This document shows, one piece after another, positions 2 through 16,467 of a stretch of DNA of 20,633 nt. The stretch comes from a virus. The notes beneath the pieces were generated by a model, which did no database searches, had not been told where the DNA came from, and was given only the letters and a program-made list of their open reading frames with translations. Location of the stretch: IMG/VR virus record IMGVR_UViG_3300020205_000624, positions 1 through 20,633 of that record; one strand, written 5' to 3'. Each line of letters opens with the position of its first letter. The first letter of the stretch is position 1. The position numbers were made by a program, and so were the translations under genes.

Positions 2-3000
2 GCTGCATATCAAGGCGGCCCGGCACTTACTACCTTTACAAACGGTACAGGATTAAGTTTACTTGTAGAGATCAATAACTTACCAAGTACAAGTTGGGTC
101 ACCGCAGCGTATGTTACACAAAATAATTCGTTGCAAACAAATAAAGCAACAATTAAAGGACAAGTAACCTCGTTCATTACAGAGAATTATCCAACTTTAA
201 GTTATGATGCTGCAACTTGTGAAAGAGATGTGGGATATATCATTGACTATGTTGGGTACGACATGATGTTTGACAGTAATTATCTAACAATAACTTCTGC
301 AAAAAGTTATTATAGAGCACAGGCTTCTTTAGTATTAGGAGAACAAAAAGCCGCTACTATTGCATCTTTTAGATACTTAAAAACTTTAATGTTAGCAGTT
401 GTTGAAGATAATGCAACAGTTAAGCGTAGAGTTAAAGTGTTAATGGATATTATTATCAACACTTTAATAAATGGTATTGGGTCAACTCCTGAAGTAACTG
501 GTACTATAACTTACAAAAATGATGTTGGCTTATACAAAGGTGCCGAAGTTCTTAAAGCAAATAAAAACTTCCTTGCAGCAGAAGCAACAGCGTGGATTAC
601 ACAAAATTACGGTGGAACAGTAACATCAGTTACTGCTACAACTGACAGATTTACCACAAGCTCTGCACATAATTTAACAGCAGGCGATCCAGTTATTTTC
701 TCTGGAACAGTTATTTCAGGCAGCGCCATTTTAGTTAATGAAATATACTATGTAGTTGCTACTCCGACACCAACGACATTTACTATTGCTGAATCAGCAA
801 TTAGTGCATCAGTGCATAATGTAACAGCTGACGGTACTGGTAGCATGACTGTACGTTATGCGTTTGATGATACGTTATGCAAGCGTGACATGAAAGAATA
901 CATCGACGCTATGGTTTATGATTTGAGTTACACTGGTAACTATAAGTCATTAAGAGCAGCTGAACTATATGTTAATGCAGTACGCGGTTCTAAACAACAA
1001 AACATGTTCTATGTTAGTAACGCCACTGGTCTACGCAATTGTACGCTCAATGGTCTAAATGGAACATTAAGTGAGGAAAATGACTACGGTACCAAACGCC
1101 CAACTGCTGGCGCATACGTTAGTTTGAATCCAGGATTTGGTCCAAATGACAGTAATGTATGGGTTAATACTCGTTCTCACTACTCACAGAACGTATCATT
1201 ATTTGGTACAGGATGTACCGGAGCCAAGATTGACGGAGCATTACATGCCGGTGGAAATCGTTCAATGGTTAAGAATGACTTTACAACCATTATGAGTGAC
1301 GGATTTGGCGTATGGTGTACAGGTGCTAACTCACTAACAGAACTTGTTTCAGTGTTTAACTACTACGGTTACGCAGGCTACATGGCAGAGCTAGGTGGAC
1401 GTATCCGTGCTACTAACGGTAACAGTTCATACGGTACATACGGAGTTATTGCCGAAGGTACTGATACATTTGAACAACCAATTTATGCAGTAGTAGATAA
1501 TCATGCTCAACAGGCAGTAGTAACTGATACTATTACTGATTCTGCAAACATTATCTACAGAATTGAATTTTCAAATGCCGGTACAAATTATACAAACGCA
1601 GACATTGCAATCGGCGGCGACGGTGTAAACGCAACTACTATTGGTGATGAATTCCGTGACGGCGGCGTATTTGAAACACGAATAATTGACTTAGATGACG
1701 GCAATGGCTATGGCGGTACTAATTACGCAAATGCTCTTAACGCTGCTCAAGGTGGCGATGTTGGATACATTACTATTGCAGCTACTGACATTGCTCTAAG
1801 TACAGCATATGTTGGTATGCGTGTACAAATTAGTGCCGGCACTGGTGTGGGACAATATGCAAATATTTTAACTTATAACAGTGGTACAAAAATTGCTACA
1901 ATTTATAAAGATAGTTTTACAGCTCTAACAGTATCAACTACTACTGATACTGGGGACTTTGTTAACGTTGCTTCTAATGCAACATTATATGCTGACATGC
2001 CTATATACTTTGTTGGTACAACTTTTGGCAGCATTACTGCTAATCAGTTATACTATGTCAAAGCGTTAACTGGAACTACGCAATTTACTGTATATCAAAA
2101 TACAACTACAAAAGCACAGATTAATGTAACAGGTGGCAGTGGAACAATGTCTATCTATGCTGCCGGGTGGGATCACGCAGTTCCTGGAACTACATTAGTT
2201 AACAGTTTAGATTTATCTTCAAGCTATAAGTTAGAACCAAGAATTAGTTATACTGCCCCAGGTTATACAGCAACAGCAAGAAGCATTCAAGCAGTTGCAT
2301 TCTCAGCAGCAACATTTGGTAATAATAGATATATTGCAATTCCTACAAGCGGAACAAGTACTTCATATAGTTTAGATGGAAAAACATGGGCTGCTGGCGG
2401 AGCATTAAGTGCAAGTGAAAGCTGGATCGACACAGTGTACGGCGGCGGCCAAGGTGCAGTAGCAACAGCAATCGTTGGCGGTCTTGGTGGTGATGGTGCT
2501 GTTTTTGAAGCAGTAATGGGAGCTGTCAATAGCATTGGCGCACCGGGCATTGACCAAGTTGTTAGTGTTACTATTATTGACGGCGGCTTTAACTATACTT
2601 CACCGCCAACTATCGTGTTTACTCCAACAACAGGCGGCGCAGGCGCAATAGCATCTTGTACTGTACTAAACGGAAAAATTGATAGTATTACTATAGAAGT
2701 TAATGGATCTGGATATAATGCTCCTCCGACAGTTTCAGCAGCAACAGATCGTGTAACAAAACTTAATGTTTCAACTTGGGGTAGAGGCTATACAACAGCA
2801 CCTACAGTTACAATTAGTCCTCCGGTTAGCGCAACTGCATGGTCGTCAGGCGGCGCCGCTACTCTAGGAACTTATTACTCGTATGTTAATACTGGAGTTA
2901 TTCCTAGTCGAACCAACTACTATCTAGCAACAGCTAGCGGTACGTTTAGTTCTACAGCACCAACATTTACATCTGGTACTGGCTCATCTGGCACATATGG

Positions 3001-5134
3001 CGTTGGGTTAACATTTGCAGCAACACTTGCAACAGGTACTGCGGTATTAACTAATAATGGTGTGGGATCTATTACAATCGGAGCTGACGGCGGCAGAGGA
3101 TACACCGCTGATCCAACAGTAACTATAGTTGATACTACTGCAAAATATGTTGCTATTGCAAGTGGAACAATTGGCACCGCATACTTACCAACAAGTGCAG
3201 CTGAAAATGCAGCATGGACAGCTGGCGGAAATCTACAAGCTGGATTTACTGATGCAGCCGCAGTAGCGTATGGCGGTGGTTTATTTGTCACAGTAGGCGG
3301 CACAAACAAAGGCGCATCTGCACCGTTGAGCGCATTAGGTATAACTTGGACAGGTAGAACACTTCCAACAACTAGTGGAACTTACTCTGCAGTCACTTAT
3401 GGTAACGGAATATTTGTTGCAATAACAACAGGTGCACAATTAACTGCCTACAGCACAAATGCTACCTCGTGGACTCAAGGTGGTAACTTACCATCTAGCA
3501 CCACTTGGAGCAGTATTGCATATGGTAACGGACGTTTTGTTGCTATTGCTACTGGCACAAGAAGTGTGGCTATTAGTTTAGACAAAGGCATAAACTGGAA
3601 AACAGTGACTCCGGGATTACCAAGTGCATTAACATGGACTAAGATTGTCTACGGACAAGGCCTATTTGTTGCAATTGCTAGCGGTGGTACAACAGTAGTT
3701 ACTAGCTCAGACGGCCTAAACTGGACTGTTAGAACAATGCCAGGTGCTAGCTCTACATGGAAAGGTCTAGCTTTTGGTAACGTAAGTAATAATCCGTTAT
3801 GGGTTGCAGTATCTAGTACAAGTGGACAAAACGCTGCATCATTAAACACCGGTGCAACTGCTCTAGGAAGAATGAAGGCAGAGTCTGGAACTATAACTGA
3901 AATTAGAATAATAGAACCAGGTTCAGGCTACCCGAAAGGAACAGTTACTGCAACTACCGATACTACAAATGTAATCACAGTAAACAATACTGAAAACTTA
4001 ATTGATAGCCAACCTATTTTATTCAATGGCGTAACTGCTGGTGGACTAGTTACTGAGAAACTATATTACGTTATTGGAACTAGCATTGTTACAAATACTA
4101 GCTTCAAAGTTAGTCTGGTAGCAGGCAGTACGACTCCGGTAGTACTAGCAACTGCTACAGGATTAACAGGAGTTTACAGAGCAGGTCCTATTGCTACTCA
4201 AACAGATCCAAATAAAGTTATTACCGCAGCAATTAATCCAAGAACAAATGATGGTGTTTTAGCTAATCCATCGTTTAGTAACAGAGGTACATTGTACACA
4301 ACTGCTACTACAGCAATTGCAGGAGATGGCTATGCAGATTTGTATCAACCTAGTACATTTATTTCGGTCAGAAATTTATATGATCGACCACAACCTGGCG
4401 CTAACGTAGTGTTTTCATCACTTCCTACTGTTTGGTATAAACTTGTTGCAGTTACTAACTTGTTAGGTGATAAGGGAGATTACACTGCTAACTTCCAAAT
4501 TAGTCCAGGAATTAGCGTACTAGAAGCACCAATTGACGGTGATACTATTACTACTACAATCAAGTACTCGCAAGTTCGTCTAACTGGACACGACTTCTTA
4601 TACATTGGTACAGGAAATCAAGCAGACACCAACTATCCGTTTGTTGACCCTACTAATGCTAGCATTGCGGCACAAACTAATAGTTCAGGCGGTGGACGAG
4701 TGTTCTTTACAAGTACTGACCAAGACGGTAACTTTAACGTCGGTGGACTATTCGGAGTGCAACAGTCAACTGGTACTGCTACATTGAACGCTGATGCGTT
4801 TAACTTGTCAGGACTACAGAGCTTGCAATTAGGTGAGATTAACCTAGGTGTTGGATCAGCTGTTATTAACCAGTTTAGTACAGACCCGTACTTTACTGCT
4901 GATAGCGATAACATTGTACCAACACAGCGAGCAATTAAAGCATATATTACAGCCCAAATTGGTGGCGGACAGAGCTCATTGAACGTAAATACACTAACAG
5001 CTGGTGTTGTATACGTGGCTAACGACTCGATCTCAACTACTAGTGGCGGTCAGTTAAATATAAAATCAAAGATGTATTTTACAGGTGGAATTGACGGGGC
5101 TCCCGTTGCACTTGGATTCTTCTTACAACGATAA
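2..5134 (+). CDS. Giant tail-fibre / structural protein, 5' end outside window
   Basis: The frame is open from position 2 without a stop, so the gene starts upstream; a TTG at 131 is only an internal codon. About 1,710 residues are visible. Seen in order: two copies of a Cys-Arg-Asp helical repeat (near 203-325 and 860-985); three copies of a beta module containing a YYV core (near 619-860, 1924-2167, 3939-4190); at least five G-x-GY-x-x-P-T-V-like repeats (2579-3127 and near 3921); Asp-box-like propeller strands (2368-2391, 3449-3472, 3574-3598, 3704-3724); and a C-terminal part with DQDGNF and SDNIVPTQRAIKAYI, motifs I associate with long fibre proteins of marine T4-like phages. The likely role is a distal fibre or baseplate-attached structure that contacts the host. 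It heads a co-directional run of virion genes, with 17 bases to the next start. The fibre-type assignment is firm; the exact place in the virion and the receptor are unknown. Confidence 0.8.
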   Translation, partial: AAYQGGPALTTFTNGTGLSLLVEINNLPSTSWVTAAYVTQNNSLQTNKATIKGQVTSFITENYPTLSYDAATCERDVGYIIDYVGYDMMFDSNYLTITSAKSYYRAQASLVLGEQKAATIASFRYLKTLMLAVVEDNATVKRRVKVLMDIIINTLINGIGSTPEVTGTITYKNDVGLYKGAEVLKANKNFLAAEATAWITQNYGGTVTSVTATTDRFTTSSAHNLTAGDPVIFSGTVISGSAILVNEIYYVVATPTPTTFTIAESAISASVHNVTADGTGSMTVRYAFDDTLCKRDMKEYIDAMVYDLSYTGNYKSLRAAELYVNAVRGSKQQNMFYVSNATGLRNCTLNGLNGTLSEENDYGTKRPTAGAYVSLNPGFGPNDSNVWVNTRSHYSQNVSLFGTGCTGAKIDGALHAGGNRSMVKNDFTTIMSDGFGVWCTGANSLTELVSVFNYYGYAGYMAELGGRIRATNGNSSYGTYGVIAEGTDTFEQPIYAVVDNHAQQAVVTDTITDSANIIYRIEFSNAGTNYTNADIAIGGDGVNATTIGDEFRDGGVFETRIIDLDDGNGYGGTNYANALNAAQGGDVGYITIAATDIALSTAYVGMRVQISAGTGVGQYANILTYNSGTKIATIYKDSFTALTVSTTTDTGDFVNVASNATLYADMPIYFVGTTFGSITANQLYYVKALTGTTQFTVYQNTTTKAQINVTGGSGTMSIYAAGWDHAVPGTTLVNSLDLSSSYKLEPRISYTAPGYTATARSIQAVAFSAATFGNNRYIAIPTSGTSTSYSLDGKTWAAGGALSASESWIDTVYGGGQGAVATAIVGGLGGDGAVFEAVMGAVNSIGAPGIDQVVSVTIIDGGFNYTSPPTIVFTPTTGGAGAIASCTVLNGKIDSITIEVNGSGYNAPPTVSAATDRVTKLNVSTWGRGYTTAPTVTISPPVSATAWSSGGAATLGTYYSYVNTGVIPSRTNYYLATASGTFSSTAPTFTSGTGSSGTYGVGLTFAATLATGTAVLTNNGVGSITIGADGGRGYTADPTVTIVDTTAKYVAIASGTIGTAYLPTSAAENAAWTAGGNLQAGFTDAAAVAYGGGLFVTVGGTNKGASAPLSALGITWTGRTLPTTSGTYSAVTYGNGIFVAITTGAQLTAYSTNATSWTQGGNLPSSTTWSSIAYGNGRFVAIATGTRSVAISLDKGINWKTVTPGLPSALTWTKIVYGQGLFVAIASGGTTVVTSSDGLNWTVRTMPGASSTWKGLAFGNVSNNPLWVAVSSTSGQNAASLNTGATALGRMKAESGTITEIRIIEPGSGYPKGTVTATTDTTNVITVNNTENLIDSQPILFNGVTAGGLVTEKLYYVIGTSIVTNTSFKVSLVAGSTTPVVLATATGLTGVYRAGPIATQTDPNKVITAAINPRTNDGVLANPSFSNRGTLYTTATTAIAGDGYADLYQPSTFISVRNLYDRPQPGANVVFSSLPTVWYKLVAVTNLLGDKGDYTANFQISPGISVLEAPIDGDTITTTIKYSQVRLTGHDFLYIGTGNQADTNYPFVDPTNASIAAQTNSSGGGRVFFTSTDQDGNFNVGGLFGVQQSTGTATLNADAFNLSGLQSLQLGEINLGVGSAVINQFSTDPYFTADSDNIVPTQRAIKAYITAQIGGGQSSLNVNTLTAGVVYVANDSISTTSGGQLNIKSKMYFTGGIDGAPVALGFFLQR
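203..985 (+). repeat. Duplicated Cys-Arg-Asp helical module inside the fibre protein
   Basis: Two stretches of about 40 codons (203-325 and 860-985) encode related segments. Both contain Cys-x-Arg-Asp, then Ile-Asp, Tyr-Asp, Asn-Tyr and an Ala-rich helix ending in Tyr. They flank the first YYV beta module, so the unit was probably duplicated together with, or around, that module. Seen directly; the function is not known to me. Confidence 0.7.
619..4190 (+). repeat. Three dispersed copies of a YYV beta module in the fibre protein
   Basis: Copies lie near 619-860, 1924-2167 and 3939-4190. Each starts with a T-x-T-T-D segment, has a D-x-P-I/V-x-F strand, a central (I/L)YYV core about 45 residues in, and ends with a Gly-rich strand before an aromatic or Arg residue. 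DNA identity between copies is low, so the duplications are old. This is probably a structural spacer domain of the fibre shaft. Confidence 0.65.
2284..3850 (+). repeat. Asp-box-like propeller repeats interrupted by GxGY repeats
   Basis: Strands of the form YGNGxFVAI alternate with S-x-D-(x)-G-x-x-W-like turns at 2368-2391, 3449-3472, 3574-3598 (an exact SxDxGxxW) and 3704-3724. This is the Asp-box pattern of sialidase-type beta-propellers. The first blade-like unit (2284-2430) is separated from the others (about 3170-3850) by a block of GxGY-x-x-P-T-V repeats at 2579-3127, which looks like an insertion between blades. No catalytic residues of a sialidase are recognisable, so binding rather than hydrolysis is the safer guess. 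Confidence 0.55.
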
Positions 5135-6480: not shown

Positions 6481-7128
6481 ATGGCAATTGGAATTAATTC
6501 AAGAGTAGATTTAGCCGCAACAACAAATACAACGATTGCAACTACTCCCGCATCCGGAAAAGCACAGATATTAACTGTATCGTTGGCTAACCGATCAGCT
6601 AGTGCTGCAACATTTAACTTGGCTGTTGTTAATAACGGTACTACTACACCATCAAACGGAGATTATCTAGAAATATCTACTAATCTTGCTGCAAATACAG
6701 TTTTTGAAAGAACAGGTATTGTACTACAAAACGGACAAACTATTGTAGCTTATGCTAGTATTGCTGGATTTTCTGCAGTTACATACGGCATAGAAGACAA
6801 CGTGTCTAACGCAAACACCGGTTCTTTCAAGGCTGCACTGCCTGCTGCTACATGGGTACAAGCAACAGCCGGACCAGCTTCAGGAAGATATCAAACAGTC
6901 TCATTAAATATCTGTAATAGAAACTCTTCATTAGCGCGGATTAGAGTGTGTATTTCGACAACATTTAATGCACCAAATGCAGGAGACTATATTGAATATG
7001 ATTCAGTATTACCTGGTGGTGCTGAATTAGAAAGAACTGGTATTGTTATAGCTAATGGTCAGCAAATTGGCGTATACTCAAGCGTAGCAACCGTTGATCT
7101 GGTTACAATGATTGTTGACGATATATAA
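6481..7128 (+). CDS. Tandem two-module virion/fibre protein, 215 aa
   Basis: The protein is two copies of the module found alone at 5152-5478: residues about 8-106 and 116-215. Each copy has a strand ending in NR(S/N) followed by Ser/Ala, a Gly/Asp-Tyr-(L/I)-E segment, an ERTGIV strand, an NGQ turn and a V/A-Y-(A/S)-S strand. The second copy is closer to the single-module protein (NRNSS, YIEYDSV) than the first. An AAGGAAA ribosome-binding site precedes the ATG. The gene ends the first structural run; the next gene has its own late-promoter-like box. The role is inferred to be structural. Confidence 0.7.
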   Translation: MAIGINSRVDLAATTNTTIATTPASGKAQILTVSLANRSASAATFNLAVVNNGTTTPSNGDYLEISTNLAANTVFERTGIVLQNGQTIVAYASIAGFSAVTYGIEDNVSNANTGSFKAALPAATWVQATAGPASGRYQTVSLNICNRNSSLARIRVCISTTFNAPNAGDYIEYDSVLPGGAELERTGIVIANGQQIGVYSSVATVDLVTMIVDDI

Positions 7129-7161: not shown

Positions 7162-7905
7162 ATGTCAGGAATTAAATTAATATACGACGGCACCTGCACT
7201 AATACTGCCAATACTACTTGTGCGTGGACTGTGCCTGCGGGCGTGTTCCGAGTAACATTTGAAGTATGGGGTGGTGGCGGTGGTGGTGGTGTGCCCGGGA
7301 CTAACTGCAATTGCTGTAGTACTGGAGGAGCTGCATCCGGTGGCGGATATTCTAAGGTAACTGTTAACGTTACTCCTGGAACAGTATACCAAGTAGTAGC
7401 AGGAGCAGCCGGAGTAAGTGGAGGTTTTGGAGCTCCTATTTCAATATGCGCAAACGGTATTACTGGCGGCACAAGTTATGTTTCTGGAACTGGTGTACCA
7501 GCAACTTTCTGCGCAACCGGCGGCCTAGGGGGTCTAAGCGACTTTGGTACTAACTGTTATGCAATGTGTGGATGTAATTTCTACACACGTACCCCAGGTC
7601 AGGGATACGGTGGTGATACTGTTGCCCAAGGAACCTGGGGTGTTGTTAGTCTATTCGGCGACCAAAGCCCATATGGTATATCAAACTTCGGCGGCGTGGC
7701 AGGTGGACCTGGCGGCGGATCTGGCGGATTCAACATATCAGGCGGCTACTGTGGCGGGCACGGGTGTTCGGTGACAGGTGAAGGACCACTTCATGGTCGA
7801 GTACCAGGTGGTGGTGGTGCCGGTGGCTCCTGCTGGAGTACCTGCCAATGCACTCCTTGGGCCAGTGGCCGAGGCGGTCCTGGTATGGTTAAAATTACTT
7901 ATTAA
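7162..7905 (+). CDS. Gly/Cys-rich adhesin-like protein 1, 247 aa
   Basis: After a short head with a WTVPAGVFRVTFEVWG strand, the protein is dominated by Gly tracts and by my count holds 15 Cys. Landmarks shared with the two paralogues at 8417 and 9578 are the WTVP...VTFE(V/I)WG opening, a Cys cluster right after the first Gly tract, a CATGGxGG segment, a YGGD/S-type turn, a (V/F)PGGGG tract near the end and a final (M/L)VK/RI-x-(Y/F). Gly-rich receptor-binding tips with polyglycine-II helices are known in T4-like phages (gp38-type adhesins); a comparable tip role is inferred. The next gene starts 11 bases later and resembles a fibre assembly chaperone. Confidence 0.7.
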   Translation: MSGIKLIYDGTCTNTANTTCAWTVPAGVFRVTFEVWGGGGGGGVPGTNCNCCSTGGAASGGGYSKVTVNVTPGTVYQVVAGAAGVSGGFGAPISICANGITGGTSYVSGTGVPATFCATGGLGGLSDFGTNCYAMCGCNFYTRTPGQGYGGDTVAQGTWGVVSLFGDQSPYGISNFGGVAGGPGGGSGGFNISGGYCGGHGCSVTGEGPLHGRVPGGGGAGGSCWSTCQCTPWASGRGGPGMVKITY

Positions 7906-7916
7906 TTGGAGATATT

Positions 7917-8417
7917 ATGAATACACATAAAATATTAATAAGCAACGACACAGGACGTATCATACTACCTATATACGTTATAGACGATCCAAGACCCTGC
8001 CCACCAGATGCTACATGGATGGAAATAGATCCAGATACAAGTATATATAAACATTATGTAGGACTCGAAGATGTGCATCATTTAGATATTGAAGCAACAT
8101 ATTGGGACTTTGAAACCAATGCGTGGATAGAAGTACCTACAAGTGGTGGTCCGTCATACGAAAAAACAAGATTCAACAGAAACGAATTGTTGAAACAAAC
8201 TGATAAAGTGTTTGCAAAAGTAACAGACCCTGTAGAAATACAACAATGGATTACTTATAGACAACAGTTACGCACAATGTTCGATGGTCTCCCTGAAGAT
8301 TTTGATTGGAATGAAATAATTTTTCCAAGAACCCCAATGGATATTAAGGCATTAAAAGATAAGGCTGCTGCTGGAGATGCATTTGCAATTGAAATAGTTA
8401 CAAGGGATAATTTATAA
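7917..8417 (+). CDS. Tail-fibre assembly chaperone-like protein 1, 166 aa
   Basis: This soluble, acidic protein has two recognisable parts. Residues about 60-75 carry a (Y)WDFETNAWIEVP strand. Residues about 85-137 carry R-N-E-L-L...TD followed by W-x-x-YRQQLR (114-119) and a closing IIFP, the pattern of phage tail-fibre assembly/chaperone proteins (R-x-x-LL-x-x-TD...YRQ-x-LR...P). About 25 residues extend beyond that motif. It sits between adhesins 1 and 2, and its TAA overlaps the ATG of adhesin 2 (TAATG), so translation of the two is coupled. It probably assists folding or trimerisation of an adjacent adhesin; which one is not decidable from position alone. Confidence 0.6.
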   Translation: MNTHKILISNDTGRIILPIYVIDDPRPCPPDATWMEIDPDTSIYKHYVGLEDVHHLDIEATYWDFETNAWIEVPTSGGPSYEKTRFNRNELLKQTDKVFAKVTDPVEIQQWITYRQQLRTMFDGLPEDFDWNEIIFPRTPMDIKALKDKAAAGDAFAIEIVTRDNL

Positions 8418-9115
8418 TGGGAAGATTTATTAGCGAAACAGTGGGATATGTTCCCAGCCAAAGAAGAACCCAACTAGTAGCCAGCGCAGGCAGCAGTGCT
8501 TGCTGCCTATGGACAGTACCATCAGGAGTAACTGAAGTTACTTTTGAAATTTGGGGAGGCGGTGGTGCGGGCGGCCCAAAATGTTGCTGTTACTGCGGTG
8601 CCTCTTCGGGCGGCTCGGCAGGCGGTTACGCAATTAAAACAGTAGCAACTTCAGCGGGACAGACGTATACATTATGTGCCGGCGGCCCAGGCGAAGCCCG
8701 TTATTGCTCAGTTGGCGGCTCAAACATTGGTTGTCAGGGCTGCACAAGTTTTGCAACAGGCACCGGCCTAACTAACTTCTGTGCAACAGGCGGAGCTGGC
8801 GGTTATACTGTATGTTGTATTCAAATGACGCAATGTTGCGGCGGCAATGGCTTCGGCGGTGATTTTAATATCCCTGGCGGTGATGCATGGCAAAAAGGCG
8901 GCTGCGGCAGTTGGATTTGTCATTTTAGTGCTGGTGGCGCTGCTGCATTCTCGGGTCACGCATGGCATTCAACAGACCATTGCTGTGCATATTTTAGCCC
9001 TGGCCGCTGCGGAGTATTTCCTGGTGGCGGTGGCGGCGGATTCTTTGCATGTGCATGTGATTGCTGCGGATGCCAGGGTGGTGGCGCATCAGGTTTAGTA
9101 AAGGTGACTTTTTAA
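8417..9115 (+). CDS. Gly/Cys-rich adhesin-like protein 2, 232 aa
   Basis: This is a paralogue of the proteins at 7162 and 9578, with the same order of landmarks: WTVPSGVTEVTFEIWG, a KCCCYC cluster, FCATGGAGG, FGGD, a DHCC motif, GVFPGGGG and a terminal LVKVTF. By my count it has 25 Cys, often in pairs or triplets, very unusual for a protein made in a reducing cytoplasm. The Cys may bind metal or form disulfides after lysis; neither can be shown here. The start overlaps the stop of the preceding chaperone-like gene, with AAGGGAT as ribosome-binding site. A 47-bp stretch is identical to adhesin 3. Confidence 0.7.
   Translation: MGRFISETVGYVPSQRRTQLVASAGSSACCLWTVPSGVTEVTFEIWGGGGAGGPKCCCYCGASSGGSAGGYAIKTVATSAGQTYTLCAGGPGEARYCSVGGSNIGCQGCTSFATGTGLTNFCATGGAGGYTVCCIQMTQCCGGNGFGGDFNIPGGDAWQKGGCGSWICHFSAGGAAAFSGHAWHSTDHCCAYFSPGRCGVFPGGGGGGFFACACDCCGCQGGGASGLVKVTF
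8510..8556 (+). repeat. 47-bp exact direct repeat, copy A
   Basis: This stretch of adhesin gene 2 is identical, base for base, to 9662-9708 in adhesin gene 3. It encodes the WTVPSGVTEVTFEIWG strand. Flanking DNA diverges quickly, so the identity suggests recent duplication or gene conversion and gives a site for recombination between adhesin cassettes. Confidence 0.95.
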
Positions 9116-9116
9116 T

Positions 9117-9563
9117 ATGTACTATTCAATTGTAGAAAAAGCAACAGGCATAATGCATGAAGGTTGGTCAAACTATATCCATGTAGATGATGCGGACAGA
9201 CCGTTACACGAATCGTTAGCCTATGTACCATTAAATGAATTGTTAACAAAATTGCTAACAACAGATGGTACAGATATAGGAGACGAGTTACATCCAATAG
9301 ATTATAAACAAACACATTACGATTTTAATACAAGTCAATGGGTAATTATATATCAAGACGATGTTCCTGAAGCCGTAGACCCAGTAGCTACTGCACAAGA
9401 ACTAAAAGATCAACACATAGCAGAAGTTAACGCTAAGTTATCTATACCGGATCTAAGTACATCCGCTAGAACTAAGTTAGAAGCGCATTTAACAGAGTTA
9501 ACATCAATTGCAATAACTGCTGAGACAGTTAAGACTGTTGTATTTCCAGTTTCACCGTTTTAA
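9117..9563 (+). CDS. Tail-fibre assembly chaperone-like protein 2, 148 aa
   Basis: It is related in layout to the proteins at 7917 and 10296. Residues about 68-78 carry a YDFNTSQWVI strand matching DFETNAWIEV in chaperone 1. Residues about 108-131 read IPDLSTSARTKLEAHLTEL, aligning with APDLPDSVKQQLLAYRQAL of chaperone 3, but the YRQ-x-LR core is replaced by AHLTEL. The C-terminus ends in a VVFPVSPF strand, like the IIFP and ITWP of the other two. It starts one base after the stop of adhesin 2 and precedes adhesin 3 by 14 bases. The chaperone role is inferred from shared layout; the motif is the most degenerate of the three. Confidence 0.55.
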   Translation: MYYSIVEKATGIMHEGWSNYIHVDDADRPLHESLAYVPLNELLTKLLTTDGTDIGDELHPIDYKQTHYDFNTSQWVIIYQDDVPEAVDPVATAQELKDQHIAEVNAKLSIPDLSTSARTKLEAHLTELTSIAITAETVKTVVFPVSPF

Positions 9564-9577
9564 AAGAGAATAAAAAT

Positions 9578-10282
9578 ATGGCAAGATATTGTACTTTAGT
9601 AACATCAGCTACATTAACATGTAGTGCGGTGTGCGATTTTCCAACTCCGGGAGCCTACACGTGGACAGTACCATCAGGAGTAACTGAAGTTACTTTTGAA
9701 ATTTGGGGTCCCGGTGGCGGTGGCGGAGCTAAATGCTGCTGCGAATGTTATCACGGTGGCCCGCCGGGCGCTGGCGGTGGCTATTCCTCAGTAACAGTTG
9801 CTACTGCGGCAGGTTGCGCATATGCTGTATGTGTGGGTTACGGCGGCATGGTCACCGGGGTTGGTAGCTGTACACTTCATTGGTGTTGTTACGGACAACC
9901 AGGATCAACTACTTACATTACGGGATTTAATCTAAGTAACCTTTGTGCAACAGGCGGCGACGGCGGAAGAAACGACTGCTATTATATTTGCGGATGTACC
10001 GTTGCAGGCGGCATTGGCTACGGCGGCAGTGTTGTTAGCTGCGGTTCAGGCGGAGCCAATCAAGGATACAGTGATGCATACTTCTGGCGATTTGCGCATG
10101 CCGGAGCACCGCCATTTACTGGCGCCGCACGTCCAATGACCGGAGATCATTGCTGCCCTTGTATGTTAGGATACCCGGGAGTGTTTCCAGGCGGCGGTGG
10201 CGCTACCGTTATGCCCAACATATGTTGCTGCTGCTCACAAGGTGGCGTTGGTGCCAACGGCCTGGTCAGAATTCACTTTTAA
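9578..10282 (+). CDS. Gly/Cys-rich adhesin-like protein 3, 234 aa
   Basis: This is the third paralogue. Landmarks are WTVPSGVTEVTFEIWG (the DNA here is identical to adhesin 2 over 47 bp), a KCCCEC cluster, LCATGGDGG, IGYGGS, DHCCPC, GVFPGGGG, a late CCCC cluster and a terminal LVRIHF. By my count it has 24 Cys. The N-terminal ~25 residues (ARYCTLVTSATLTC...) differ from the other two, so the cap that attaches it to the virion may differ while the tip is shared. An AAGAGAAT ribosome-binding site precedes the ATG. The chaperone-like gene at 10296 follows by 13 bases. Confidence 0.7.
   Translation: MARYCTLVTSATLTCSAVCDFPTPGAYTWTVPSGVTEVTFEIWGPGGGGGAKCCCECYHGGPPGAGGGYSSVTVATAAGCAYAVCVGYGGMVTGVGSCTLHWCCYGQPGSTTYITGFNLSNLCATGGDGGRNDCYYICGCTVAGGIGYGGSVVSCGSGGANQGYSDAYFWRFAHAGAPPFTGAARPMTGDHCCPCMLGYPGVFPGGGGATVMPNICCCCSQGGVGANGLVRIHF
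9662..9708 (+). repeat. 47-bp exact direct repeat, copy B
   Basis: Identical to 8510-8556. The two copies lie in the same place relative to the adhesin reading frames, 1,152 bases apart. Recombination between them would remove chaperone 2 and fuse adhesins 2 and 3 in frame (the distance is a multiple of three). Confidence 0.95.
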
Positions 10283-10295
10283 AAGGTAACTCATA

Positions 10296-10781
10296 ATGAC
10301 ACAATACGCTTTATTTTTTAATACTGAAACAAATAAACCCTATAATATGGTTGTTTATAGAGATGCTGAAATCCCACCAGAGGAACATTGGCCACCAAAG
10401 GCTAAACTTTTTGTATTTGACGAAACTACAGAAAACTTTGATACGTTATACGGAGTTTGGGTTGAAGACCAAGAAAAAGTTTACCTAGACTACGATGCAT
10501 TTAATGTAGTTTTAGATCCCGTTACGGGCGAATTTACTTTCCCTATGCTAGCCAAGTTATCTAATATTGAGCTAATTAGAGAAATACGTAATAAAAAAAT
10601 TGCAGAAACTGACGTATTCATGTATGCCCCGGATCTACCAGATAGCGTCAAGCAACAGTTGCTAGCATATAGACAAGCACTGCGAGATATTACTAATGGA
10701 CTTAATCCAGAAACTGTACCTGATGTTATTACTTGGCCAGAAATGCCTGCGGCATTTGAATCAGCAAAGATGGATGTTTAA
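10296..10781 (+). CDS. Tail-fibre assembly chaperone-like protein 3, 161 aa
   Basis: The C-terminal half has the clearest chaperone pattern of the three: residues about 107-132 read MYAPDLPDSVKQQLLAYRQALRDI in outline, with the YRQALRDI core at 125-132, then VPDVITWPEMP at 141-151. This resembles the conserved tail of phage tail-fibre assembly proteins. The N-terminal half opens with a QYALFFNTETNKPYNMVVY strand pair that differs from the other two, consistent with adaptation to a different adhesin. An AAGGT ribosome-binding site precedes the ATG. The stop codon overlaps the stop of the convergent gene on the other strand (10778-10781). Confidence 0.65.
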   Translation: MTQYALFFNTETNKPYNMVVYRDAEIPPEEHWPPKAKLFVFDETTENFDTLYGVWVEDQEKVYLDYDAFNVVLDPVTGEFTFPMLAKLSNIELIREIRNKKIAETDVFMYAPDLPDSVKQQLLAYRQALRDITNGLNPETVPDVITWPEMPAAFESAKMDV

Positions 10782-11320
10782 TTTTTGTCAACAGTTGCGT
10801 GAGCAAATTCAAAAAATGTAGCATAACGGGTCCAACTGGACCCGTTACCTATTTTAACAGGCATAGCCTTAGCCGATGTCGCAGCCAGCAGATCCTTATC
10901 AAACGAACTGATAACAGGGATATTACTCCAGTCTATTGATTGATTTTCACTTGCCTTATGAAACATGCCAGGATTGGGAACAACGTACGGGTCATTTTTA
11001 GTAATAGATGGACACCAATAGATTCCAACTACTTTAACACCCTGCGCATTTATAAATCGTTCAACAGCGCCATTTAAATTATTAAATGTTTCATATGGTA
11101 ATTGTCTTGATTTAAATTGATTAATAAACACAATTACCGAATAGTTTTCTTCAGCTAACAATCTTAATCCAGCTATTGCAGATTCTAAAAAATCAATCTT
11201 TCCAGAGTAAACATCTGTTGTACTAGGATCCACAAGCGCATTAAATGGAAACAATCCAATTATTTTAGACTGTGTAGTACCCGCATTTGGAGTTGTTAAG
11301 ATATGGCTAAATCGGCTCAT
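10778..11320 (-). CDS. HAD-like GmhB/HisB-type protein lacking catalytic residues, 180 aa
   Basis: The fold order follows the GmhB/HisB phosphatase group: an opening strand (IIGLFPFNALV, residues 20-30), a helix, VIVFINQ (62-68) where family members have vvvTNQ, GIYWCPS (99-105) where GmhB has GIYYCPH, NPGMF (116-120) where GmhB has KPxPGM, and VISSFDKDLLAA (136-147) where GmhB has VGDKxxDxxAA. The nucleophile motif DxDGT is replaced by PFNAL, the motif-II Thr by Ile, the motif-III Lys is absent and the motif-IV GD is SS. It is probably a non-catalytic binding or regulatory protein, or enzymatically dead. GGAAA precedes the ATG. It faces the GT9-like gene across a 103-base divergent gap. Confidence 0.65.
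   Translation of the reverse strand: MSRFSHILTTPNAGTTQSKIIGLFPFNALVDPSTTDVYSGKIDFLESAIAGLRLLAEENYSVIVFINQFKSRQLPYETFNNLNGAVERFINAQGVKVVGIYWCPSITKNDPYVVPNPGMFHKASENQSIDWSNIPVISSFDKDLLAATSAKAMPVKIGNGSSWTRYATFFEFAHATVDKN
10824..10847. terminator. Perfect 10-bp hairpin, candidate bidirectional terminator
   Basis: Arms TAACGGGTCC (10824-10833) and GGACCCGTTA (10838-10847) are perfect complements around a 4-base loop AACT. On the plus strand the stem is followed by CCTATTTT, on the minus strand by a run of six T starting several bases away, so neither U-tract is ideal. The hairpin lies about 43 bases after the end of the plus-strand adhesin/chaperone block and inside the 3' coding end of the minus-strand HAD-like gene. 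It may end transcription of the adhesin block; this is inferred from position and structure. Confidence 0.55.
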
Positions 11321-11423
11321 TGTAGTTTCCTTTTATATAATTATACATATCTATCAAGACTGCCACTCTATTGTGATACATCACGATAAGTAGTACACAG
11401 TTTTAAAACTTACCAAGGATATT
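11321..11423. other. Divergent intergenic region
   Basis: This 103-base AT-rich gap separates the start codons of the minus-strand HAD-like gene and the plus-strand GT9-like gene. It must hold start signals for both. On the plus strand I see GATAAGTA at 11385-11392; on the minus strand only a loose TATATAAAA next to the ribosome-binding site. No small gene or strong hairpin is visible. Confidence 0.6.
11385..11392 (+). promoter_or_regulatory. Weak late-promoter-like box (GATAAGTA)
   Basis: GATAAGTA has two differences from the T4 late box TATAAATA and one from the GATAAATA variant seen twice elsewhere in the window. It lies 31 bases before the ATG of the GT9-like gene, leaving room for the AAGGA ribosome-binding site at about 11416. 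Alone it would be weak evidence; the matching positions of the related boxes raise it. Confidence 0.35.
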
Positions 11424-12353
11424 ATGCAAAAAACAGTTTTTATTAATGGTGGCGCAGGCAGAATGATCTGTGCATTGCCTGCGCTTGAACGCTTTATCCA
11501 AGAAAACCCAGATGGGTATATCGTAACAGAAGCAGGCTTGGATTTTGTTTGGGGAAATCGCATCTTACAAGATCGTACACTCGAAATTAATACAAAAGGT
11601 CTTTTTGAAAACATTATTCGAAAAAGTCAAATTATTGCACCTGAACCTTACAGAGATTATGATTATTATAATCAGAATTTAAGCATATCACAAACATTTG
11701 ATAAACTTATTAATGGAAGTGTTAGAGAAAATTTTGATTATCGTCCTAATATTATTCTTAATAAAGAAGAAGAATTAAATGGAGTGACGGCATTAAAGCA
11801 TGCCAAAGACGAGCATAAAAAAGAAAAAACAATTGTTATTCAGCCGTTTGGCCGCAGTTCAACTAATGATAGTAACTTAGGGGTTGTAGTAGATTACAGT
11901 ACTCGAAGTTTAGAAATGAAAACATATATGGCTATTGCACGAGCTCTTAGAGAGCAGTATAATGTTATTAGTATGTCAGAATTTGCAATACCCGGAGACG
12001 ATATCAGTGTTAATCCTAAACAATTAACCTTGCGTAAATGGGCGGCAATAATAGAACATGCAGATTATTTTATTGGGTGTGACAGCGTCGGACAACATCT
12101 TGCATACAGTATGAAAAAACCTGGGAGTGTGATATTAGGAAGTACATTTGCAGTTAATGTAAGTTACCCAAATTACTTTAATATTATTGAAAAGCAAGGC
12201 GTAGAAAAACGATATAGTCCTATTAGAATTTCAGAGTTTGGATGCTACGAAGCTGATAGATTTAACGATATGTTGTTAGAATTTGATGACACAGAAACTG
12301 CTGATCTTATTAATAATATTATGACACATATTAAACGCACAATTGGAGAATAA
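11424..12353 (+). CDS. GT9 / heptosyltransferase-like glycosyltransferase, 309 aa
   Basis: It appears to be a two-domain GT-B protein close in length to bacterial heptosyltransferases (~320-350 aa). The N-terminus has GGAGRMICALPALERF (residues 9-24), like the opening loop and first helix of the family (GD-x-(I/V)...LPAL). The C-terminal domain starts near TIVIQPFGRSS (136-146), with the donor-side motif GCDSVGQHLAYSMKKPGSVILGST (218-241 in outline), matching the GxDSGxxHLAxxxxxPxxxLFG pattern. The donor is probably an activated sugar, perhaps ADP-heptose; the acceptor is unknown. It is followed directly by an SGNH-like gene (stop and GTG adjacent) and opens the accessory sugar-tailoring block. 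The fold is fairly sure, the substrate not. Confidence 0.7.
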   Translation: MQKTVFINGGAGRMICALPALERFIQENPDGYIVTEAGLDFVWGNRILQDRTLEINTKGLFENIIRKSQIIAPEPYRDYDYYNQNLSISQTFDKLINGSVRENFDYRPNIILNKEEELNGVTALKHAKDEHKKEKTIVIQPFGRSSTNDSNLGVVVDYSTRSLEMKTYMAIARALREQYNVISMSEFAIPGDDISVNPKQLTLRKWAAIIEHADYFIGCDSVGQHLAYSMKKPGSVILGSTFAVNVSYPNYFNIIEKQGVEKRYSPIRISEFGCYEADRFNDMLLEFDDTETADLINNIMTHIKRTIGE

Positions 12354-13139
12354 GTGACTTCAATGACTGTAGACTGGTTACTTGCAGTCGGATGCAGTTT
12401 AACTTGGGGGACTGAGATAACACAACTACGGATGTCACTACCCGAAGATAAAGAGTTAGCATGGCCTGCACACTTAGGTAAAGCATTATCAGCACATACT
12501 ATAATAAATCGAGGATTACCTGGGCGCAGTAATGGTAGTATCTTTCGTATTGCAATGCAAGAACTTATTAGTTGTTATAATAAACACGGGTCTAATGGAA
12601 TGTTAGTAGTACAATGGACAGGTCCTGATCGTTTAGAATTTGTAAATCCATTTCAATTTGATATTCAAGAACTTTATAAAACTGAAACTAATACAAATCA
12701 TCCCGGACAAGAAGGGTCATACTTATGTGTAAGTCCTGCAGAACTTACTATACCTTTTTTAAAAAAGCAATTTATTGGCCTAGATTATTTTTTTGTAAAT
12801 AATTGGGCTCATACATTTTATCAAACTGAACTACTAATAAATCATAGCATCGCATTAACTAGTTTGGCAAACAGATTAGGAATTAAGATTCTACAATTTA
12901 ATGGCATTGATCAAATAGATGTTGCTGTATTACACAATCATGCAGTCCATATGTTAGATTTAATAGGTACTGAATATTATCGTCCCTATGAACGAGAATA
13001 TGCATTTTGGCCATCGATGAGACATTTCCCACAACAGCGCATAGAATCTGGAATTATAGAAGTTCCAACACACCCAACTGTTGATGAACATTATCAATGG
13101 GCGGCAACACTATACAAATACATACAGGAAAATTATTAA
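12354..13139 (+). CDS. SGNH/GDSL-like hydrolase or acyltransferase 1, 261 aa
   Basis: Landmarks of the SGNH fold are GCSLTWG near the N-terminus (residues 13-19, Ser15 as candidate nucleophile, Cys in place of the usual Asp), NRGLPGRSNGSIFR (52-65) as the Gly/Asn block, a VVQWTGPDRLEF strand (85-96) and a late HPTVDEHYQWA (240-250) as the catalytic His region. SGNH enzymes remove or move acyl groups on sugars and lipids. GTG at 12354 directly follows the upstream TAA and has GGAG five bases before it; an ATG at 12363 is possible but badly spaced. The neighbours (GT9-like, carbamoyltransferase) suggest a glycan substrate; this is inference. Confidence 0.6.
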   Translation: MTSMTVDWLLAVGCSLTWGTEITQLRMSLPEDKELAWPAHLGKALSAHTIINRGLPGRSNGSIFRIAMQELISCYNKHGSNGMLVVQWTGPDRLEFVNPFQFDIQELYKTETNTNHPGQEGSYLCVSPAELTIPFLKKQFIGLDYFFVNNWAHTFYQTELLINHSIALTSLANRLGIKILQFNGIDQIDVAVLHNHAVHMLDLIGTEYYRPYEREYAFWPSMRHFPQQRIESGIIEVPTHPTVDEHYQWAATLYKYIQENY

Positions 13140-13169
13140 TCAATTCTGATTAATAGTATAACCCTAGTC

Positions 13170-13177
13170 TATAAATA
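13170..13177 (+). promoter_or_regulatory. T4-type late promoter box (exact TATAAATA)
   Basis: TATAAATA is the exact T4 late consensus, in the 67-base gap between the SGNH-like gene and the carbamoyltransferase, 30 bases before the ATG. Predicted transcription would start near 13183, upstream of the CGGAGAA ribosome-binding site. It suggests that the carbamoyltransferase, oxygenase and second SGNH-like genes form their own late unit. Confidence 0.65.
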
Positions 13178-13206
13178 TTTTGTAACACAATACACGGAGA
13201 ATAAGA

Positions 13207-14988
13207 ATGACACAATGGATCGCAGGCATTACTAGAGGCCATAATGGCGCAACCTGTTTATTAAAAGATGGAGAAGTAGTATTCTATATTGAAGAAGAAC
13301 GACTAAGCCGTAAAAAATACGATGGCGGGCCGTTAGCAGGTATGTTAAAGATTAAAGAATATACTAATAAACTTGATTATCTTGTTGTAGCTCATACACA
13401 ACCTCTTAAAGATGCTGGTAAAATTGATTTTACTGGGGATGATATGTACACGGGCCTTGCAAGAAAGTTAGGTCTTATAGAACAGAATTTTAAAGGTGCC
13501 GAGCATCCGCAAGTGATTGATCTAGGAATGATGCATCACGAATTACATGCAGCATGTGCATTTTATAACAGTGGATTTGAAACTGCTGCTTGTTTAATTG
13601 TTGATGGCGCTGGAACTTTTGTACCGCTAGGCGAAACCATCGGGTGGGAATTAGAAACAATTTTTAGTGCAAATTACCCAGCAAATTTTGCTACAAAATA
13701 TAAACATATAGGACTACGTGGCCCACAAGTAACTTTTGAAAAGTTAAATTGCCCCCATGATAATAGAGGTAAGCCTGAAGACATTCATGATGTAATTTTT
13801 ACAGACCACCCGGGCATTACTAAGTGTTATGAAGCAATGACAAATTATTGTGGATTTAATTTTATTGAAGCTGGCAAAGCTATGGGTCTTGCACCTTACG
13901 GCAAACCTAATCCTAATATTCCTCCTATTTTCCTTGGCCCAGAAGGTAGATATTTAAGTAATAGAAATTTAATTGTGCCCAATTATCCTAATGGTGCCAT
14001 TATCGACAAAGTTAGTAATCCAGCTTTGGATATTGATAGTTTAGAAATGAAACAAGATCTTGCATACGCTGTACAAGAAGCTACACAAATGCAAATGGTA
14101 CGCCTAATTCTTGATGCAATTGAAAGGACAGGTGAAAAGAACATTGTGATAGCAGGCGGATACGGGCTAAACTGTGTAGCTAATTATGAATATTTAAAAC
14201 ACTTACCTGAAGGTGTAAACTTGTATGTTGAACCAATTAGTCACGATGGCGGCACTTGTATTGGTGCTGCAAAAATGATACATCATGATCTAAATAAAGA
14301 TAACACTATTAGAAAACAGACTAGCATCTATTACGGTCCACACTATTTTGAAAAAGATGGCGGATATACTATACAGTTGGCTGAGTTTGAAACAATTACT
14401 GAAGTTACTAAGGACGATATTGTAGAATTGTTACTACAAGAAAAAATTGTATGTATGTATCAAGGCCGAAGTGAAGCAGGCCCTCGTGCATTAGGTAATC
14501 GCAGTATTTTGTTCAATCCGGCTGTTAAAAACGGTAAAGATATTGTTAACGGTGTTAAACATAGAGAGTGGTTCCGCCCGTTTGCAGGAACAATATTAAA
14601 AGACGCAGTGCATGATTGGTTTGACTTACGAGGTATGGACTCAACTCCTCATATGATGTATGCTGTAGATTGCCAACCGGGTGTTGCTGATAAGATTCCT
14701 AGTATTATTCACGTTGACGGTACTTGTCGTATACAAACAGTAACATTAGAAGAAAATCAACACTACTACGAACTTATTAGTAAGTTTAATGAAAAAACAG
14801 GAGTTCCTATTTTGTTCAACACTAGCTTTAACTTAGGTGGCGCACCGTTAGTTGAAACAATTGAAGATGCATTACATACTTTAAGATCGAGTGATTTAGA
14901 ATATTTGTACTTGCCAGAAATTGGTAAGTTAATACGAGTACCGTATAATTTAAACGGGGAGGACGAAGATGGATGTGGTATGGTTTGA
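13207..14988 (+). CDS. Carbamoyltransferase, NodU/CmcH family, 593 aa
   Basis: The length and motif order match O-carbamoyltransferases that use carbamoyl phosphate and ATP (NodU, CmcH, TobZ). The N-terminal Kae1-like domain has GITRGHNGATCLL (residues 7-19), EEERLSRKK (29-37), a metal-site HHELHA (110-115), VDGAG (132-136), GKAMGLAPYGK (223-233) and GGYGLNCVANYEY (317-329). Then come EPISHDGGTCIGAA (342-355) and the C-terminal domain with GRSEAGPRALGNRSIL (420-435), WFRPFAGTI (455-463) and LFNTSFNLGGAPLVET (536-551). All expected signatures are present, so the enzyme is probably active. The acceptor hydroxyl is unknown: sugar, antibiotic-like molecule or modified base are known possibilities for the family. 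It has its own late-promoter box and overlaps the oxygenase gene by 20 bases. Confidence 0.9.
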   Translation: MTQWIAGITRGHNGATCLLKDGEVVFYIEEERLSRKKYDGGPLAGMLKIKEYTNKLDYLVVAHTQPLKDAGKIDFTGDDMYTGLARKLGLIEQNFKGAEHPQVIDLGMMHHELHAACAFYNSGFETAACLIVDGAGTFVPLGETIGWELETIFSANYPANFATKYKHIGLRGPQVTFEKLNCPHDNRGKPEDIHDVIFTDHPGITKCYEAMTNYCGFNFIEAGKAMGLAPYGKPNPNIPPIFLGPEGRYLSNRNLIVPNYPNGAIIDKVSNPALDIDSLEMKQDLAYAVQEATQMQMVRLILDAIERTGEKNIVIAGGYGLNCVANYEYLKHLPEGVNLYVEPISHDGGTCIGAAKMIHHDLNKDNTIRKQTSIYYGPHYFEKDGGYTIQLAEFETITEVTKDDIVELLLQEKIVCMYQGRSEAGPRALGNRSILFNPAVKNGKDIVNGVKHREWFRPFAGTILKDAVHDWFDLRGMDSTPHMMYAVDCQPGVADKIPSIIHVDGTCRIQTVTLEENQHYYELISKFNEKTGVPILFNTSFNLGGAPLVETIEDALHTLRSSDLEYLYLPEIGKLIRVPYNLNGEDEDGCGMV

Positions 14989-15700
14989 GGGTGCAACACC
15001 CCTAACAAAATTTGCACCTAAGTTTAAAGTTCCTATTGGGGTTGGGTTTGGCGGCTCAAACGGACTGGTTGATCGATTAACCAAATACGTGCTTACACTA
15101 GAAGAAACAATTATTTCTAAAGAACAGCTAGTATCACCGGTTCCTAAATCCGAAGCTGATCCATACAGGCATACGCAACAGTGGAAACAGCACAACTTGC
15201 TCGACGATATTGTAGGGTTGGAGGGCGAACACTTACAACGATTCCCTCCAGATCCTGCAATTGAAGAATTGTTTACAGTAATACGAACTGGGTATTTAGA
15301 GTTTCTTTCAAAATTAAATTATCCTAGAAGAAAAGTATATATTCACGGGTGGGCCAATGTATTAAGAGATTCAGAATGGATTAGTAAACATCGACATATT
15401 ACTACAGAAGAATCGTATCTTGCATGTACATATTATTTAACTACTAATACAACTTCTTTATATCTTGAAAATCCGTTAGTAGGAGAAGTTATGAGTGCTA
15501 CTACTGAAGAAAAGAAATTAATATTTTTTCCTAGTTGGATGCCTCACTGGAGTGATAAGATTGAAGGCGACAGCATTAGAATTTCTTTAGCATTTGATAT
15601 AGTAACAGAAAGCTGTACGATTAAAAATCCATGGCGTCCTCATCGGTTACTAGACGACCCGGCTACTATGCCGGGATTAGAAGGGTTACGAGGCAAGTAA
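14969..15700 (+). CDS. 2OG-Fe(II) oxygenase-like protein, 243 aa
   Basis: The C-terminal half shows the double-stranded beta-helix pattern of small phage 2OG-Fe(II) oxygenases: KHRH (residues 140-143) followed by a YLACTYYL strand, an LENP turn, IFFPSWMPHWSD (185-196, with the distal iron ligand His193) and DSIRISLAFD (201-210, with Arg204 placed to bind 2-oxoglutarate). The usual acidic residue of HxD is not obvious; the second position reads His. It probably hydroxylates a small molecule, sugar or protein, possibly making the hydroxyl that the upstream carbamoyltransferase uses. The start lies inside that gene with GGGGAGG six bases before the ATG, so translation is coupled. Confidence 0.7.
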   Translation: MDVVWFEGATPLTKFAPKFKVPIGVGFGGSNGLVDRLTKYVLTLEETIISKEQLVSPVPKSEADPYRHTQQWKQHNLLDDIVGLEGEHLQRFPPDPAIEELFTVIRTGYLEFLSKLNYPRRKVYIHGWANVLRDSEWISKHRHITTEESYLACTYYLTTNTTSLYLENPLVGEVMSATTEEKKLIFFPSWMPHWSDKIEGDSIRISLAFDIVTESCTIKNPWRPHRLLDDPATMPGLEGLRGK

Positions 15701-16467
15701 TGAATACTCTATGGATAACTGGAGATAGTTTTTCTGTTACTATACCCGACGATAAACATATAATTCCGTGGACAATGCAGTTAGCAAATCAACTTAACTA
15801 TAATTTAAAAAATAATAGTGAATGGGGAGTTTGCCAAGACTGGTCATGGGACTTTATCAATAGAGAAAAATTAAATATTTCTTCAAACGATCAACTAATT
15901 GTTGTACTTACTGACCCGGCAAGATTTTGGTATTTTGAAGAAATACCAAGTTTAACTAACAGCCATGTTCTTGATTTTAATAGCTTAGTCGAAAATAAAA
16001 ATCGTACACAGGCTGCAAGCAATTACATACAGTATATACAACGTCCTAGCCTTGATACACAGATGATGGCACATCGATTAGGCTGGCTTAACAACTTGGC
16101 AACTTTAAAAAGTTGGAGGAAACCTATAATTTTAGTAGCATTCGATATGTATATTCCGGACATTGCTGATTTTAATAATTTAGTGTTTTCAGACGGATGC
16201 TTGAGGGGTGTTGATCAAAGAGAGCACACAGAAGATTTTAAACTTAAACCTATTGATGTACGATATAATCATTTATGTTTGCGCAATCATAGTGTGCTAG
16301 CTAACAAATTATATAATACAATAATCAACAATGAAAATTTAGATTTACATACTGGATTCCATACACAAATACTATCTAACAATTCTATGGAAGATCCTAA
16401 ATTTATAGAAACTGATTTTAGTCCGTGGCTAGTGAAAAAAAGTAAATCAATTAAATTACATCAATAA
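15700..16467 (+). CDS. SGNH-like protein 2, 255 aa
   Basis: A longer reading from an upstream ATG at 15631 is possible, but the ATG at 15700 overlaps the oxygenase stop (TAATG), has GAGG six bases before it and puts the conserved strand at the N-terminus: LWITGDSFSV (residues 4-13, Ser10 as candidate nucleophile). Further landmarks are NNSEWGVCQDWSWDFI (38-53) as a degenerate Gly/Asn block, LIVVLTDPARFWYF (66-79), matching LVVQWTGPDRLEF of SGNH-like protein 1, and RYNHLCLRNHSVLA (188-201) as the His region. The two are divergent members of one family. The gene ends in a 17-base overlap with the convergent Nudix gene. Confidence 0.55.
   Translation: MNTLWITGDSFSVTIPDDKHIIPWTMQLANQLNYNLKNNSEWGVCQDWSWDFINREKLNISSNDQLIVVLTDPARFWYFEEIPSLTNSHVLDFNSLVENKNRTQAASNYIQYIQRPSLDTQMMAHRLGWLNNLATLKSWRKPIILVAFDMYIPDIADFNNLVFSDGCLRGVDQREHTEDFKLKPIDVRYNHLCLRNHSVLANKLYNTIINNENLDLHTGFHTQILSNNSMEDPKFIETDFSPWLVKKSKSIKLHQ

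Follow-up and report, generated by a model that had tools for sequence, protein, structure and literature searches.

The window analyzed here, a 20.6-kb stretch of DNA (positions 1 to 20,633 of virus record IMGVR_UViG_3300020205_000624), comes from a T4-like phage, marine or freshwater, with the T4-like markers gp15 tail-sheath stabiliser (PF16724) and head–tail adaptor (phrog_211). It carries at 7162–10781 an array of six plus-strand open reading frames (ORFs) in which three glycine- and cysteine-rich proteins (heads G1, G2 and G3) alternate with three small proteins (chaperones C1, C2 and C3) in the order G1-C1-G2-C2-G3-C3. It is highly probable that these are, respectively, heads of a tail fibre and tail-fibre-assembly chaperones. 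Across related arrays the constant is three heads and not three head–chaperone pairs, the alternating layout being one version of it. As the best reading of these observations, we give an even chance to a single fibre tip made of three different chains (A:B:C).

Probable head and chaperone proteins of the array

An earlier sequence-only reading of the window had described three paralogous Gly/Cys-rich proteins alternating with three small ones, and their coordinates, order and homology were all borne out. Composition-adjusted BLAST aligned G2 with G3 at 45% identity over 207 amino acids (aa; E 7e-30) and G1 with G2 at 45% identity over 110 aa (E 4e-9). The idea that the heads are unrelated Gly-rich proteins, alike merely in composition, was ruled out by the same composition-adjusted alignments. 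Pfam family PF21722 (Gly_rich_2; curated cut-off 24.3 bits) is passed by G1 (36.7 bits) and G3 (33.5 bits); G2, just below at 22.7 bits, is counted in the group because of its paralogs. Cysteine makes up 6% of G1, 11% of G2 and 10% of G3, and it occupies at least 60% of rows at 15 columns of the head alignment and at least 96% at three of them. The near-invariant residues lie at G1 positions 117, 132 and 138 (alignment A13), next to about a dozen other common cysteines; disulphides or metal binding are possible.

An AlphaFold2 (AF2) model of G1 built from 72 sequences (predicted local distance difference test, pLDDT, 83.5; predicted template modelling score, pTM, 0.85) has as its best PDB match in Foldseek the fibre of cyanophage Pam3 (7YPX; E 7.6e-7, probability 1.00, template modelling score 0.56). 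Tail-tip chains of mycobacteriophage Bxb1 follow, and the glycine-rich domain of ALK matches weakly; the best structural match in a viral library is a protein of S-CAM3. In its predicted form, G1 has the elements of a Pam3-type head, a tumour necrosis factor (TNF)-like beta-sandwich and a glycine-rich loop domain; for G2 and G3 the same fold is expected by homology only. The earlier proposal that the Gly-rich proteins are trimeric tips gains from this resemblance to a known trimeric fibre head. An N-terminal alpha-helical docking bundle of the Pam3 type was not found in the G1 model, which starts with a strand at residues 4–8, and the 50 best Foldseek matches listed for G1 do not include 6F45, the gp38 adhesin of phage S16. 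Single-protein sequence searches of the PDB gave no match, and a head profile matched only RemZ (E 2e-4).

The three small proteins are joined to one another by profile–profile comparison, with the E-values of all three pairs given in Table 1. Against Pfam PF16778 (curated cut-off 26.6 bits), C3 passes with 40.7 bits and C1 falls below with 24.1; C2 alone has no convincing family match, and its link to the family comes via the profiles (96% and 92% probability). A profile of the C3 slot matches 2KZ6 at E 1.5e-4. The AF2 model of C2 (pLDDT 89, pTM only 0.57) places an N-terminal strand region before two long C-terminal helices, a layout in keeping with the domain order of Pam3 gp25. Foldseek with this model returned nothing significant (2KZ6 at E 3.9), and therefore the assignment of C2 rests on the profile links. 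The motifs that had first suggested kinship, a D-F-x-T-x-x-W strand in C1 and C2 and a YRQ-x-LR tail in C1 and C3, are both present and can be taken as genuine signs of homology, since the profiles join all three proteins. The chaperone-like character assumed for them also holds, as they are related both to one another and to the tail-fibre-assembly family. No match was obtained for C3 in the close-relative scan or for C1 and C2 in phage-record searches, which suggests that these chaperones evolve too fast for single-sequence searches.

Number, order and age of the heads in related arrays

Related arrays were collected by scans seeded with the heads and, without regard to how many heads there are, with the carbamoyltransferase next to the array. 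The 74 non-redundant complete arrays thus obtained comprise 64 with exactly three heads, eight with two, one with four and one with six; these counts are to be read with the head-seeded sample requiring recognisable heads, the carbamoyltransferase sample consisting of the best 80 matches, and arrays of one lineage not being independent. The carbamoyltransferase-seeded sample alone has exactly three heads in 34 of 41 arrays; several carbamoyltransferase loci have no head of this type, and some of them are cut by contig ends. Writing G for a head and C for a chaperone, the layouts are GGGC (41), GCGGC (12), GCGCGC (8, the window's), GGC (6), GGCGC (3) and GCG (2), besides two larger layouts; chaperones range from one to three while the head number holds at three. 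The alternating order, which the sequence-only reading had proposed to seek in other viral contigs, does recur; its suspicion of an undescribed system in the window gives way to a widespread trio, for which we nevertheless found no paper. The window's six-gene order is found in L001 (84% in G3) and in the diverged L002 (38%), where the genes downstream of the array lie on the opposite strand.

Whole records agree with the array counts. Exactly three heads per record were found in S-SSM7, Sf-FS3, S-CAM1, S-CAM3 and three contigs of 165–246 kb, and S-SSM7, Sf-FS3 and S-CAM1 have one recognisable chaperone of the C1–C3 family genome-wide. The arrays of these four named isolates are annotated as hypothetical throughout. 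Not far from the Cys-rich heads of S-CAM3 is a gene annotated as cysteine dioxygenase (L097, 13898–14001). In the GGC lineage, the four contigs of sufficient length (G012, G015, G016 and G017) all have a third head at a distance of about 22 kb; contigs G014 and G018, with two heads, are shorter fragments. The distant head of G012 sits between a 1412-aa fibre gene and capsid (head) genes and has no adjoining chaperone. The N-terminal tag of the distant third head, MASLK-x-LLGS, is of the same type as those of the array heads of its lineage. Three distinct paralogs are kept as a set, P-SSM2, L083 and L092 being the exceptions, and it is quite probable that the set of three is functionally required.

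Trees of the heads point to different histories at two depths. Among diverged contigs with the window's layout, the slots form their own groups (support 96 for slot 1 and 99 for slot 3; for slot 2, five of six rows grouped with support 98), and by these trees the slots of this layout are old and unshuffled. Across the four deep lineages tested, heads group by lineage (bootstrap 92–100) and not by slot, and keeping any slot together across the four was rejected by the approximately unbiased (AU) test (p 1e-97, 4e-25 and 8e-8). It follows that either the trio arose repeatedly or its heads were homogenised, with the number three kept either way. In L017 the cores of the three heads are near-identical, so homogenisation or recent duplication can occur. 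Comparison of the window with L001 gives a ratio of nonsynonymous to synonymous substitution rates (dN/dS) of 0.11 for each head and of 0.08–0.21 for the chaperones, values that are approximate since dS approaches or exceeds 1. Purifying selection acts on all six genes, and none is a decaying spare.

One mixed tip or several tips

Our hypothesis is that the array codes for the tip at the distal end of a T4-like tail fibre, where the host is recognised. Each head would be a beta-sandwich bearing glycine-rich loops, as predicted from the Pam3 fibre head fold, and the loops would form the receptor-binding surface. G1, G2 and G3, one copy of each, would make up a heterotrimer (A:B:C) at the end of the fibre and dock on the shaft or on an adaptor through N-terminal tags that are short and often shared. 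If Pam3 gp25 is a guide, the N-terminal strand domain of a chaperone would grip its client and the C-terminal helical domain would trimerise, the chaperone chains thus coming together with the heads. In most lineages the heads of an array carry a common tag of this kind, which varies from one lineage to the next (MA[ST]YxSYKK, MxxLRxLL, MPTSFxxLV). If the proposal is true, a single fibre end presents three different binding surfaces.

Chaperones cut to their C-terminal domain would fit mixed chaperone trimers best. In three contigs of the window's layout (L002, L014 and L023), C1 is only 93–94 aa long and consists of the C-terminal domain alone; the last chaperone of GGCGC arrays has just 88–113 aa. 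A chain of that kind could hardly grip a head by itself, which favours the mixing of chaperone chains. The sequence-only reading had assigned each head its own folding helper, an idea at odds both with these shortened C1 proteins and with most relatives, S-SSM7, Sf-FS3 and S-CAM1 included, which have one chaperone for three heads.

Several observations weigh against a heterotrimeric tip. Pam3, the solved relative with one head gene, is a homotrimer, and we found no virion proteomics on the proteins of these arrays. P-SSM2, a complete genome, has just two heads, L092 has four and L083 six, and L163 carries a single Gly-rich, Cys-poor protein of 704 aa with one chaperone. In the window's own clade the N-terminal tag of G1 is unlike those of G2 and G3, which share one. 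The distant third head of the GGC lineage adjoins another large fibre gene and could serve a different fibre. As to the form of the unusual arrays, the two-head version of P-SSM2 (L007, 5710–8576) has a chaperone-type protein between the heads, and long N-terminal stretches there look coiled-coil-like by eye; in L083 (1394–7885) and L092 (3155–7768) the first and last heads are of the usual type, and the inner ones, of 362–454 aa, seem to belong to a different subfamily.

The main rival explanation is that three separate homotrimeric tips sit on their own fibre ends and are displayed together for several receptors. The homotrimer formed by Pam3 gp24, which has the same predicted fold (PMC9608196), speaks for it, as do slots that are distinct and stable inside lineages, the chaperone placed directly 3′ of each head in the window's layout, and the fibre gene beside the distant head. 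However, separate tips leave unexplained why three heads are found in 64 of 74 arrays, across trios that arose or were homogenised separately, and why a distant gene restores the number to three. Most relatives also have one chaperone per three heads, and the tags common within most arrays suggest that heads dock at the same kind of site. We regard separate tips as doubtful, although they are the most serious competitor. Of the earlier idea that several tips are shown together, simultaneous display is possible, but a single A:B:C tip fits the fixed head number better than three separate ones.

It is very improbable that the heads are alternative or reserve tips, exchanged by recombination with one in use at any time. 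In favour of such exchange, heads cluster by lineage, and the near-identical cores of L017 indicate that recombination or recent duplication happens; yet dN/dS is near 0.11 for all three heads against L001, slot identity is kept within lineages, gaps do not exceed 14 nucleotides (nt) and the head count shows no drift. Swapping by recombination, as the sequence-only reading had envisaged it, thus disagrees with the separate grouping of slots within the window's lineage and with the low dN/dS. That the heads are other virion or secreted Gly/Cys-rich proteins, e.g., capsid decorations or adaptors, is very improbable, for although one lineage has a head near capsid genes, the G1 fold matches a tail fibre and a tail tip, and the heads adjoin large fibre genes and tail-fibre-assembly chaperones.

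Generalizing the mixed A:B:C tip, we tentatively propose, at slightly below even chance, that T4-like phages of aquatic hosts, cyanobacteria and probably others, have a fibre tip that is an obligate heterotrimer, its trio having been set up or homogenised independently in four lineages or more and being served by one to three chaperone chains, some of them just a trimerisation domain. An adhesin built in this way from three different chains would be out of the ordinary for a tailed phage, and the fact that lineages came to three heads again and again would be a natural example for work on the evolution of paralog complexes. How T4-like cyanophages recognise their hosts is poorly understood, and the heads are still "hypothetical" in S-SSM7, S-CAM1, S-CAM3 and P-SSM2. 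With probable tip heads and their chaperones, the structure that binds the receptor has a concrete candidate, and the question becomes one mixed tip versus three separate ones.

Surroundings of the array and comparison with known systems

Table 1. Positions in the window of the array genes, the fibre genes upstream of them and the hairpin that follows.
Feature	Position	Strand	Evidence and remarks
Large tail-fibre protein, 1667 aa, probable shaft	131..5134	+	phrog_9851 tail fiber protein, E 5.9e-65; 5′ end possibly cut by the window
Small beta-rich fibre protein, ~106 aa	5152..5478	+	phrog_11338 tail fiber, E 2e-9
Probable fibre protein, 322 aa	5493..6461	+	only position and conservation (in L001 and L012); no family match
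215-aa protein, two copies of phrog_11338-type domain	6481..7128	+	phrog_11338, E 1.1e-14, two stretches
G1, Gly/Cys-rich head, 247 aa	7162..7905	+	PF21722, E 6e-9; AF2 model; Foldseek 7YPX
C1, tail-fibre-assembly-type chaperone, 166 aa	7917..8417	+	PF16778, E 3.3e-5 (below curated cut-off); hhalign to C3, E 4e-14; stop overlaps G2 start
G2, Gly/Cys-rich head, 232 aa	8417..9115	+	PF21722, E 1e-4; phrog_4205, E 1.7e-27; 45% identity to G3
C2, divergent tail-fibre-assembly-type chaperone, 148 aa	9117..9563	+	hhalign to C3, E 3e-9, and to C1, E 7e-7; AF2 pLDDT 89
G3, Gly/Cys-rich head, 234 aa	9578..10282	+	PF21722, E 5.5e-8; phrog_4205, E 8e-26
C3, tail-fibre-assembly-type chaperone, 161 aa	10296..10781	+	PF16778, E 2e-10 (above cut-off); phrog_4912 tail fiber assembly, E 9e-13
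Bidirectional terminator-like hairpin, 10–11 bp	10823..10848	both	just 3′ of the array, within the 3′ end of a convergent ORF

The intergenic gaps along the array are 11, −1, 1, 14 and 13 nt, and this tight spacing, together with the hairpin after C3, suggests that the six genes are transcribed as one unit. Spacing and hairpin are the whole basis of this suggestion, since the T4-type late-promoter pattern was without enrichment in our search (59 found versus 57 expected) and sigma-70-like sites occurred only at chance level. Genes of 105–110 aa precede most related arrays, as the small beta-rich gene does in the window.

Downstream of the array lie genes for a carbamoyltransferase of Nol-like type and a 2OG-Fe(II) oxygenase, and one that resembles glycosyltransferase genes. 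The sugar-modification genes at 10778–15700 comprise a HAD-IIIA phosphatase, a weak GT9-like protein and the carbamoyltransferase and oxygenase just named; the phosphatase is related to heptose-bisphosphate phosphatase (E 4.8e-12, below cut-off), and in S-CAM3 heptose-synthesis genes occupy the corresponding place beside the array. These genes may act on host glycans or on the tip itself. Two proteins (12354–13139 and 15631–16467) have GCSLTWG and GDSFS at the start and look like SGNH/GDSL hydrolases by eye, without a confident family match. On the minus strand, 18474–19829 encodes a virion protein (phrog_11591) with a central CBM_5_12 carbohydrate-binding module (26.6 bits, just over cut-off). 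Photosystem genes, sought as a hint of the host, were found in 3 of 13 records, including the contig of L035, which has the window's layout; in the same search they were not found in the contigs of L001, L002, L012, L014 and L020.

The kinds of component are already known, namely the Gly-rich fibre head and the tail-fibre-assembly chaperone; for the conserved trio, its cysteine richness and the variable chaperone number, we found no description in the open literature, subscription papers lying outside our search. Among the closest known systems is Pam3, in which three chains of fibre gp24 assemble with three of chaperone gp25, the head being TNF-like and Gly-rich and the N-terminal beta-sandwich of gp25 holding it while the C-terminal helical domain trimerises (PMC9608196). 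The array is like gp24/gp25 (7YPX) in its predicted head fold and in the neighbouring chaperone with a variable N-terminal and a conserved C-terminal helical domain. In contrast, the single head gene of Pam3 encodes a protein that has a long helical docking domain at its N-terminus and assembles as a homotrimer, whereas the window has three short-tagged, Cys-rich paralogs (6–11% Cys), with one to three chaperones across arrays.

As putative glycine-rich tips of a T4-like phage, the heads would also be comparable to gp38 of phage S16, which is receptor-binding. There, gp38 is a single adhesin that caps trimeric gp37. The structure of gp38 (6F45) resembles Pam3 gp24 (PMC9608196). On the chaperone side, the relatives are the PF16778 family (Phage_tail_APC), Tfa of Mu and lambda, and 2KZ6, with C3 above the family cut-off and C1 and C2 related by profiles; unlike Mu/lambda Tfa, several chaperone paralogs can occur here in one array, some of them reduced to the C-terminal domain.

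Methylophilales phage Melnitz-3 (L009) is similar in that two chaperone-family genes alternate with fibre-like genes, followed by a Gly-rich head-like protein; however, the proteins that alternate there differ in type, its Gly-rich protein is not Cys-rich and there is no paralog trio. The Melnitz phages, found via C3 matches, were accordingly rejected as carriers of the head trio, theirs being a different fibre set. Finally, gp35, gp36 and gp37 of mycobacteriophage Mysterious form a solved heterotrimer of three different proteins (PMC13252515). That heterotrimer is of beta-sandwich type, as the heads are predicted to be, but the Mysterious proteins are baseplate accessory proteins and their heterotrimer is solved, whereas the heads of the array are proposed as fibre tips and their heterotrimer is inferred.

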